The notes beneath the pieces were generated by a model. That model was not told the origin of the DNA. It did no database searches and saw only the letters and a list, made by a program, of their open reading frames with translations. Positions 31,125 through 36,249 of a DNA stretch of 64,000 nucleotides are shown one piece after another. Source of the stretch: Halomonas sp. MCCC 1A13316 (GTDB lineage: Bacteria; Pseudomonadota; Gammaproteobacteria; Pseudomonadales; Halomonadaceae); the NCBI RefSeq assembly GCF_014931605.1, contig NZ_CP053382.1:1488001-1552000 (forward strand), given 5' to 3'. A program made the position numbers and the translations under genes. Each line of letters starts with the position of its first letter. The stretch's first letter is position 1.

Positions 31125-31153
31125 TTGACAGCTTCCAGGGGCTTGAGTAAGAT
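31125..31153 (+). promoter_or_regulatory. sigma-70 promoter of the tRNA operon
   Basis: TTGACA (31125-31130), a 17-base spacer and TAAGAT (31148-31153), followed by the GC-rich discriminator TCGCGCC typical of stringently controlled stable-RNA promoters. The first tRNA begins about 30 bases after the expected start site. Confidence 0.85.
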
Positions 31154-31191: not shown

Positions 31192-31267
31192 GTCCCATTC
31201 GTCTAGTGGTCCAGGACACCGCCCTTTCACGGCGGGAACAGGGGTTCGAACCCCCTATGGGACGCCA
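31192..31267 (+). tRNA. tRNA-Glu (UUC), copy 1
   Basis: A 76-base cloverleaf with encoded CCA. The anticodon stem CCGCC/GGCGG closes the loop CTTTCAC with anticodon TTC. The T-arm is GGGGTTCGAACCCCC. It is the first gene behind the TTGACA-17-TAAGAT promoter. Confidence 0.98.
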
Positions 31268-31314
31268 CTCGTTTCGTTGCTGGTTCAGCAGGTACCGGAG
31301 TGCGGGACTGAAGT

Positions 31315-31389
31315 GCGGGAATAGCTCAGTGGTAGAGCATCGCCTTGCCAAGGCGAGGGTCGGGAGTTCGAATCTCCTTTCCCGCTCCA
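31315..31389 (+). tRNA. tRNA-Gly (GCC), copy 1
   Basis: A 75-base cloverleaf with encoded CCA; acceptor GCGGGAA/TTCCCGC and anticodon loop TTGCCAA (anticodon GCC). It is followed by a short hairpin ATTCTGC-TTCG-GCAGAAT (31390-31408), a UUCG tetraloop likely to guide 3' processing. Confidence 0.98.
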
Positions 31390-31430
31390 AATTCTGCTTC
31401 GGCAGAATGAGCAGGTTCCGCTCCTACTGC

Positions 31431-31506
31431 GTCCCATTCGTCTAGTGGTCCAGGACACCGCCCTTTCACGGCGGGAACAGGGGTTCGAACCCCCTATGGG
31501 ACGCCA
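31431..31506 (+). tRNA. tRNA-Glu (UUC), copy 2
   Basis: Identical over 76 bases to copy 1, anticodon TTC, CCA encoded. Confidence 0.98.
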
Positions 31507-31564
31507 TCTTCCGGTTGCATCCGCAGTAGCGGTTGCATTGCTGATTGCATAGACTTGCGTACGT

Positions 31565-31639
31565 GCGGGAATAGCTCAGTGGTAGAGCATCGCCTTGCCA
31601 AGGCGAGGGTCGGGAGTTCGAATCTCCTTTCCCGCTCCA
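31565..31639 (+). tRNA. tRNA-Gly (GCC), copy 2
   Basis: Identical over 75 bases to copy 1, anticodon GCC, CCA encoded. It is followed by CCTGC-TTCG-GCAGG and then GATCACC-TTCTC-GGTGATC, two small hairpins in the spacer. Confidence 0.98.
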
Positions 31640-31701
31640 GATCCTGCTTCGGCAGGGGTACAGATCACCTTCTCGGTGATCGCGCATTGTCTGGCTGCTG
31701 C

Positions 31702-31777
31702 GTCCCATTCGTCTAGTGGCCTAGGACACCGCCCTTTCACGGCGGGAACAGGGGTTCGAACCCCCTATGGGACGCCA
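31702..31777 (+). tRNA. tRNA-Glu (UUC), copy 3, D-loop variant
   Basis: A 76-base tRNA with anticodon TTC. It differs from copies 1 and 2 in the D-loop (GTGGCCTAGGA instead of GTGGTCCAGGA), two base changes that keep the cloverleaf. CCA is encoded. Confidence 0.97.
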
Positions 31778-31822
31778 CCTTTCGGTTATACTGCATGGGC
31801 AGGCATGACCGAGACCGATCAA

Positions 31823-31897
31823 GCGGGAATAGCTCAGTGGTAGAGCATCGCCTTGCCAAGGCGAGGGTCGGGAGTTCGAATCTCCTTTCCCGCTCCA
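31823..31897 (+). tRNA. tRNA-Gly (GCC), copy 3
   Basis: Identical over 75 bases to the other two copies, anticodon GCC, CCA encoded. Its 3' end is the first member of the downstream 81-82 bp tandem repeat array. Confidence 0.98.
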
Positions 31898-32223
31898 GTT
31901 TTCTTTTCAATCTCCAAGATGCCAAGGCTTGGGCCGTGATCTGGTGCGCCAGCCCGGTCGAATCTCCTTTCCCGCTCCAGTTTTCTTTTCAATCTCCAAG
32001 ATGCCAAGGCTTGGGCCGTGATCTGGTGCGCCAGCCCGGTCGAATCTCCTTTCCCGCTCCAGTTTCTTTCCCTGTTTCGAAGATGCCAAGGCTCGGCCCG
32101 GGAGCCGGAACGCCGGACCGTCGAATCTCCTTTCCCGCTCCAGTTTCTTATCCGTTCTCCAGAATGCCAAGGCTCGGGCCGGAAGCCGGGGCGCCGGACC
32201 GTCGAATCTCCTTTTCCGCTCCA
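31876..32223 (+). repeat. tandem array of 81-82 bp units, each carrying the 3' end of tRNA-Gly
   Basis: The last 22 bases of tRNA-Gly copy 3 (from 31876) recur at 31958, 32040, 32121 and 32202, giving periods of 82, 82, 81 and 81 bases. The first two units are identical over 82 bases. The later ones diverge in the ~60-base interior but keep a shared ATGCCAAGGCT core; the last tRNA end has one change (CTTTTCCG). The first 9 bases of that core after the A (TGCCAAGGC) also occur in the tRNA-Gly anticodon arm. No unit has a matching GCGGG acceptor half, so none is a functional tRNA. The layout is that of the E. coli tyrT operon, where tandem repeats containing the last 19 bases of tRNA-Tyr yield rtT RNA. 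That these units are transcribed is inferred from their position in the operon. Confidence 0.9.
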
Positions 32224-32251
32224 GTTTTCCTCCCCCCAAAATTTCTATTAC

Positions 32252-32282
32252 CTTGCCCATGGGCGAGGCAGCTGCGTTTTTC
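32252..32282 (+). terminator. possible terminator of the tRNA operon
   Basis: CTTGCCC-AT-GGGCGAG, partly overlapping a GCAGCTGC palindrome, is followed by GTTTTTC about 30 bases after the last repeat. The hairpin is irregular, so this is a tentative end of the tRNA/repeat transcript before the ABC transporter genes. Confidence 0.4.
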
Positions 32283-32353
32283 CCGGGCCAGGCTTGAAAA
32301 ATTCCTTCGCGCCCTAATCTCTTGAACTCGTTTTCGCTTCGCAAGGATGTCCC

Positions 32354-36161: not shown

Positions 36162-36249
36162 GGAGGGGTGTCCGAGTGGTCGAAGGAGCACGCCTGGAAA
36201 GTGTGTAAGTCGCAAGGCTTCGAGGGTTCGAATCCCTCCCCCTCCGCCA
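36162..36249 (+). tRNA. tRNA-Ser (GGA)
   Basis: An 88-base type II tRNA with encoded CCA. Anticodon stem CACGC/GTGTG closes loop CTGGAAA (anticodon GGA, reads UCC/UCU). The long variable arm (CGCAAGGCTTCG region) and the T-arm GAGGGTTCGAATCCCTC are clear. It is followed by a strong terminator, so it is a single-tRNA unit. Confidence 0.97.

Follow-up and report, generated by a model that had tools for sequence, protein, structure and literature searches.

What are the tandem repeats that stand directly behind the third tRNA-Gly(GCC) gene of a tRNA operon in Halomonas sp. MCCC 1A13316, each of which closes with the 3' end of that tRNA? A preliminary description of the locus took them for a likely counterpart of the tyrT/rtT RNA array of Escherichia coli. 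RtT is the known case of tRNA-tail repeats; the array considered here belongs to a second set, which accompanies another tRNA, is unrelated in sequence, extends across a family of bacteria and carries a covarying hairpin module, and which therefore lets one ask whether tRNA-tail repeat RNAs are a convergent functional class. No description of tRNA-Gly tail repeats was found in the literature searched, which was covered in part and at the level of titles and abstracts. Throughout, the window means the whole stretch of 64,000 nucleotides that was analysed (NZ_CP053382.1, positions 1,488,001 to 1,552,000, forward strand), and window positions are counted from its first letter.

The array in the window

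The operon, the repeated units and the sites that flank them are as follows.

31125..31153, + strand: promoter-like site TTGACA-17-TAAGAT of the tRNA operon, then a GC-rich TCGCGCC stretch (consensus match only)
31192..31897, + strand: tRNA operon Glu-Gly-Glu-Gly-Glu-Gly (ARAGORN; Rfam RF00005)
31823..31897, + strand: third tRNA-Gly(GCC), the last 22 bases of which (31876-31897) are the repeated tail
31898..31979, + strand: unit 1, 82 nt, with the tail (31958-31979) at its end
31941..31957, + strand: T-loop hairpin module of unit 1 (CTGG TGCG CCAG C CC G G)
31980..32061, + strand: unit 2, 82 nt, same sequence as unit 1, tail at 32040-32061
32023..32039, + strand: module of unit 2
32062..32142, + strand: unit 3, 81 nt, tail at 32121-32142
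32105..32120, + strand: module of unit 3 (CCGG AACG CCGG A CC G), the A of which would have its partner in the first T of the tail
32143..32223, + strand: unit 4, 81 nt, tail at 32202-32223 with one mismatch
32186..32201, + strand: module of unit 4
32251..32281, + strand: palindrome CCTTGCCCATGGGCGAGG and T-run behind the array, a weak candidate for the transcript end

The tail starts at 31876 within the tRNA and again at 31958, 32040, 32121 and 32202, which bears out the earlier report of four further copies at steps of 82, 82, 81 and 81 bases. The other descriptive claims made at that time also hold. The first two units are identical and the later ones diverge inside (units 3 and 4 share 78-79% with unit 1 in an ungapped comparison) while the tRNA end is kept, apart from the single mismatch in the last tail, and ATGCCAAGGCT is present in every unit of the window array. 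It had been argued in addition that the units cannot form an acceptor stem, and for a single unit this is right: the GCGGGA strand occurs in none of the 138 units of the fetched loci, window units included (a list in which spurious rows, e.g. of 23, 33 and 135 nt, are all counted, 125 of the 138 measuring 60-125 nt), ARAGORN calls no tRNA within the array, and the units have no cloverleaf with a paired acceptor stem.

A second array is absent from the organism's own genome, and there is no unit behind the first two tRNA-Gly genes of the operon, nor behind the tRNA-Gly of the genome's own Gly-Cys-Leu operon. Among 60 distinct tRNA contexts in 43 loci (the genome has 64 tRNA matches), free copies of a tRNA tail within 500 nt occur for tRNA-Gly(GCC) and tRNA-Ile(GAT) only; the tRNA-Ser at 36162, the one window tRNA gene outside this set, has no free tail copy. 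The copy of the tRNA-Ile(GAT) tail is part of a full tRNA-Ile-like sequence, which lies directly behind tRNA-Ile(GAT) (L159, ~1594-1690; G000:C1 near 376384), two such contexts being counted in the genome. Its acceptor ends are normal, but its anticodon and T regions contain additional bases, and ARAGORN does not call it.

Occurrence among relatives

The preliminary description had allowed for a recent neutral duplication, for which absence of the array from all relatives would have spoken. The comparison across relatives found units in 178 of 275 family genomes and in 14 of 24 genera (core model R2, strict filters), whereas 97 of the 275 gave no R2 match under filters that lose weak ones, so that presence appears patchy. 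Counts were made with R2 because tRNA-Gly on its own already scores with the unit model R1 (about 1e-10); R2 contains tRNA stem sequence and is thus biased towards tRNA context, and several of its matches in the own genome (L118-L123) look like chance. Within the genus, the tRNA part of the query was matched in all 90 genomes, with many of the listed matches extending into units, and 30 of the matched loci were read. In a further set, which counts some places twice (one place in two loci), 57 of 59 module matches lie no more than 600 bases behind tRNA-Gly, the other two being cut by a contig end.

At the level of the order, a strict pattern, which undercounts and misses even the own-genome units, was matched in 13 of 390 genomes, belonging to nine of 142 genera and four families (f1, f6, f38, f43). 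Ten out-of-family places were read, and nine of them lie behind tRNA-Gly. The tenth (L099; genome G382, contig 32, near 1610194) is a stand-alone decayed unit followed by a second, related hairpin, with no tRNA called nearby. A class-wide R2 search of 369 genomes, made with strict filters and with few genomes of the order drawn, gave nothing convincing beyond this; its three out-of-family matches have E-values of 0.005-0.01, one of them resembles a tRNA read on the opposite strand, and no unit was recognised in any of the three. The window array is not a matter of chance, for units of its type stand behind tRNA-Gly in genomes throughout the family, and this recurrence in many relatives suggests, as far as genome comparison can tell, a new element rather than an accidental duplication.

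The units as decayed 3' parts of tRNA-Gly

The sequence TGCCAAGGC, kept in all four window units, is identical to the part of tRNA-Gly made up of the anticodon and the 3' strand of its stem, and is therefore regarded as inherited tRNA sequence. When whole unit bodies were compared with tRNA-Gly, the number of shuffles as good, out of 2000, was 22 for unit 1, 38 for unit 3 and 6 for unit 4 of the window. In L067 and L070 the likeness goes further, the bodies matching tRNA-Gly from the D loop through the T stem with no shuffle as good. For L083 the number is one, and for L081, the weakest, it is 47. This likeness indicates that the unit is a tRNA-Gly which lacks the 5' acceptor and D strands and has received an insert in its T loop. 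Its layout is GAG-[CYGGnnYGCCRG X CC R X']-TCGAATC, with an insert of 16-17 nt, and both this anatomy and its conservation across the family can be accepted with high confidence.

The module is not a fixture of every unit. In L070 (genome G200), the last tRNA-Gly is followed by an unbroken run of nine 72-nt units that lack the module and have the empty site GGGAGTTCGAATCTCC, and one further unit in the same operon does carry it. Some units hold a second hairpin at the module's spot (e.g. GGCTGACGGCAGCC, between R and X'), as in L010, L013, L022, L023, L077, L078 and L083; judged by eye, X-X' complementarity is retained in several of these loci, not in all. Some units of this type break a pair, such as the last unit of L010, in which a T in the loop stands with R = G. 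Lone units fold no better than shuffles (z 1.3 to 1.9).

Covariation and fold of the hairpin module

Ahead of TCGAATC, the module reads C-Y-G-G nnYG C-C-R-G X CC R X'. Covariation links the loop Y to R and X to X', and one stem pair switches between U-A and C-G. In 40 cores hand-picked for diversity from a total of 89, 99.6% of cells pair, as against 43% or less in slid controls, and there are 34 two-sided cells, as against a shuffle mean of 9.6 and with none of 500 shuffles as high. Modules could be parsed in 119 of the 138 units, the 19 unparsed being dropped, by a rule that requires three of four stem pairs and so partly selects the stem cell; 354 of their 357 cells are Watson-Crick (shuffles: mean 213.7, maximum 239), as are 236 of 238 for the two crossing pairs alone. 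The states seen are C-G, U-A and A-U for X-X', and C-G, U-A and G-C for the loop pair; two or more states coexist in 13 of 80 loci, and because as many as eight fully paired combinations occur, descent in blocks does not explain the matching. The loop pair crosses X-X', so that a pseudoknot-like or tertiary arrangement is called for, and the crossing pairs point to a compact pseudoknot-like fold of the module. Among the module pairs, RNAalifold detects the stem only.

G-U intermediates are absent from both the 40-core set and the 119-module set. They are rare yet present more widely, with one X-X' T-G in the 89 cores, two T-G in 80 copies of the dispersed repeat described below and a T-G loop pair in the second-hairpin unit of L010. 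Their rarity could reflect strict RNA geometry or a constraint at the level of DNA, and fits either equally well.

The module in a dispersed MITE-like repeat

Elsewhere in the organism's genome, a 158-bp dispersed repeat with the inverted ends GGAAACrCTGmACAAAT likewise harbours the module; this repeat has 25 matching pieces at roughly 19 places (G000:C1, L130-L148, outside the window; e.g. G000:C1:1891972-1892129). It may be related to IS5-type elements. The module is exactly missing from the copies L135, L136, L139 and L143 (L147 being the same place as L143). A scan for this context in one genome per species gave 82 stretches, by a pattern which admits only CTGG/CCAG before TCGRAATC and in which the flank is thus built in and variety and other contexts are underestimated. 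The 80 listed stem from Halomonadaceae-type genera, Pseudomonas guineae, Stutzerimonas stutzeri and an Oceanospirillaceae MAG. The surrounding repeat is nearly the same in nearly all of them, that of P. guineae differing, and 77 have C-G at both pairs, while two have T-G and one has C-A at one pair. By linking a tRNA operon to a MITE-like repeat, the module offers a handle on how such inserts arise.

It may be asked whether the module is at heart a DNA element, a hairpin of (possibly single-stranded) DNA that serves, for example, as a recombination or transposition site before TCGR, with att-like unit tails and with RNA as an incidental product. Its exact presence or absence in otherwise similar repeat copies would suit such a role, as would the near-uniform repeat around it in the 80 listed of 82 loci (given the built-in TCGRAATC flank), the rarity of G-T pairs and the second hairpins at the same spot. 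Moreover, ICEclc-type elements integrate in GTCTCGTTTCCCGCTCCA, which is nearly the unit tail, 16-17 positions of the 18-bp published site being matched (PMC7466150, in the portion available). ICEclc-family sites, however, go with a large element and an integrase, whereas the units here are of ~80 bp. Between or beside the window units (81-82 bp) there is no integrase or island, and the reading frame after the array presumably belongs to an ABC transporter. Nor was a recombinase found with the module, the flanks of the only Y1 match in the own genome being module-less by eye; the array had no match in phage records, and two module patterns had none in viral contigs, so that a phage or viral origin was rejected. 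Together with the inheritance of the units described below, this makes a DNA-level role quite unlikely. A replicon of Halomonas sp. PA16-9 has one array match, at 79%.

An origin from RAYT/REP sequences (Y1 transposase, IS200/IS605) was considered and rejected on the same sole PF01797 match of the own genome; the reading frame adjoining it was taken by us for TnpB. Members of one BIME cluster have been described as resembling rtT (PMC2965389, in the portion available). The likeness to BIME/REP sequences is that one short structured sequence is common to a tRNA-tail repeat and a dispersed repeat; the difference is that the module is another one and that the dispersed carrier has terminal inverted repeats, and is hence MITE-like.

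Inheritance of the units

The tail allele (CTCC or CTCG) could be scored in 125 units, and not in 13; in 123 of the 125 it is that of the closest tRNA upstream. In L012, the first two tRNA-Gly genes and their units have CTCG, and the third tRNA-Gly and its units CTCC. Copy number varies among genomes, and linkers diverge between genera. All of this, along with the identity of units 1 and 2 and the 97 family genomes in which no unit was found, would be expected of a neutral by-product without function, to which a repetitive tRNA operon gives rise through slippage and unequal recombination and which is homogenised via the 22-bp tail. A neutral origin does not sit well with a module that is kept with crossing Watson-Crick covariation, nor with the observation that among the organism's own tRNA contexts an array of this kind occurs only at tRNA-Gly. 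It also fails to predict the stronger conservation of the module relative to linker and spacers among orthologous units: across 11 Gly-Cys-Leu operons of genus g23 (12 loci were given and one Glu-Gly operon was dropped), mean identity is 0.89 for core and module and 0.92 for the tail, as against 0.70 for the linker, 0.69 and 0.58 for the neighbouring spacers and 0.54 downstream, with 0.80 for the 60 bases upstream of tRNA-Gly. Neutrality is on balance a rather unlikely account.

Of 40 linkers, 22 have their nearest relative in an operon of the same type and 10 in one of a different type, in both cases in another genome; for five it is in the same locus, and for three in a different locus of that genome. 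With shuffled labels this last figure averages 0.5 and reaches at most 4, and two of the three are one place fetched twice. As the nearest linkers are mostly of the same operon type elsewhere, inheritance there is mainly vertical, and the units of genus g23 appear to be inherited in place, which, with the scarcity of same-genome nearest linkers, tells against a DNA-level element. Exchange between unlinked tRNA-Gly loci as a rule was rejected on the same figures, only three of 40 nearest linkers being of that kind and two of them artefactual.

Transcription and release

Of the 138 units, 57 have tRNA genes of the same operon on either side (the next gene is Glu for 29, Cys for 27 and Gly for one), or 55 of 125 if only units of 60-125 nt are considered, and owing to this position inside tRNA operons they are presumably transcribed. 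Behind the window array, the rule of the terminator scan accepts no terminator, and the fold of 32224-32300 lacks the CCTTGCCCATGGGCGAGG hairpin. In L101, L102 and L103, which belong to other families, a terminator-like hairpin is seen by eye between tRNA-Gly and the unit or inside the unit, and these copies may not be made as RNA, which tells against an RNA function for them. Taken as a whole, co-transcription and release of the units are rather probable.

A possible tRNA-Gly mimic

The best single explanation of the array, and still a tentative one, is that it encodes processed, non-tRNA trailer RNAs of tRNA-Gly(GCC) of a mimic type. The units would be transcribed together with the tRNA operon, and ordinary tRNA 3' processing would free RNAs of ~80 nt with a CCA end, like the one in the annotation of E. 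coli rttR. Module and tail would then constitute a mimic of the tRNA-Gly 3' half, which, by engaging a tRNA maturation or quality-control factor, would tune tRNA-Gly maturation. Recombination or gene conversion, acting locally by way of the 22-bp tail, would keep the unit tails on the allele of the preceding tRNA. The mimic function in itself is conceivable, if somewhat doubtful. Patchy presence, linkers that are unlike between genera, the nine module-less units of L070, the broken pairs of some second-hairpin units and the failure of lone units to fold better than shuffles all point against this explanation. A wider proposal is that a pseudoknot-like cassette of 16-17 nt before TCGR, shared by tRNA-Gly tails and a MITE-like family, is an undescribed element of the Halomonadaceae and nearby families, and that in the tRNA operons it yields processed mimics of the tRNA-Gly 3' half, by which either tRNA-Gly maturation or an enzyme that handles tRNAs is regulated; in that full form the proposal is unlikely.

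The tail has drifted from the tRNA tail while the module stays in three of 11 orthologous units (L229, L232, L324), an observation that speaks against a pure tail decoy. A decoy for CsrA-like proteins, as had also been suggested, is not borne out. GGA is the motif by which CsrA/RsmA decoys act, and units 1 and 2 are without it; it occurs in 108 of the 138 units when counted anywhere in the unit, loops included without distinction.

The tails could alternatively act in cis, the 5' acceptor strand of the last tRNA-Gly pairing with either its own tail or a unit tail and maturation being modulated thereby. In the predicted ensemble of tRNA and array, this strand does pair with the tails of units 2 and 4 and not with its own. 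The prediction comes from a secondary-structure model without tertiary contacts or co-transcriptional order, in-silico removal of the module shifts pairing among the unit tails without restoring that of the own tail, and the module is given no role, which leaves such a switch very unlikely. The module as an insulator, keeping unit tails from the tRNA 5' strand, was likewise considered and received no support from the in-silico removal.

Comparison with known tRNA-associated RNAs

3'ETS-leuZ, one of the 3'-ETS RNAs of tRNA operons, is a stable sponge RNA that is cut out of a tRNA precursor and pairs to sRNAs. It shares with the mimic proposed here its place on the 3' side of a tRNA precursor, but it is neither repeated nor tRNA-derived.

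The likeness to rtT is closer, and the layout that underlay the original comparison with tyrT/rtT stands, namely tail-ended repeats in a tRNA transcription unit. Like RtT, the array consists of tandem units that end in the 3' end of the upstream tRNA, and in both systems units are placed behind or beside tRNA genes. E. coli units too end in tRNA tail and CCA, the annotated end of rttR being the CCA of the first 178-nt unit, and rtT/rttR is said to be freed by tRNA processing. By analogy, the array plausibly works like rtT in being released at CCA ends. A link of rtT to the stringent response is attributed to Bosl and Kersten (1991) in papers that cite them, and RtT matches with Northern signals adjoin tRNA genes in Actinobacillus pleuropneumoniae (Pasteurellaceae), according to the available portion of PMC4986893.

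Sequence kinship with RtT is not supported. The Rfam RtT model (RF00391) matches neither the array region nor the own genome nor the loci of six relatives, whereas in the control stretch from E. coli it matches four times, to either side of tyrV. The tRNA is tRNA-Tyr in one case and tRNA-Gly in the other, the units measure 178 and ~80 nt, respectively, and the T-loop module is absent from rtT. An attempt to read E. coli rtT as a tRNA-Tyr 3' half with a T-loop insert was not significant (66-91 of 1000 shuffles as good). Homology at the sequence level is thus refuted at the sensitivity of the Rfam model, and for all the shared layout it is extremely improbable that the array is a true member of the RtT family. 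The two also differ in the surroundings of the tail, since in rtT the predicted partner of the tail is GGGGAAGGAU, within the unit, whereas Halomonas-type units are without such a strand. In the E. coli K-12 stretch (L086, 1285700-1287500), the rtT tail ATCCTTCCCC is predicted to be paired with GGGGAAGGAT, in a helix that ends in CCACCACCA.
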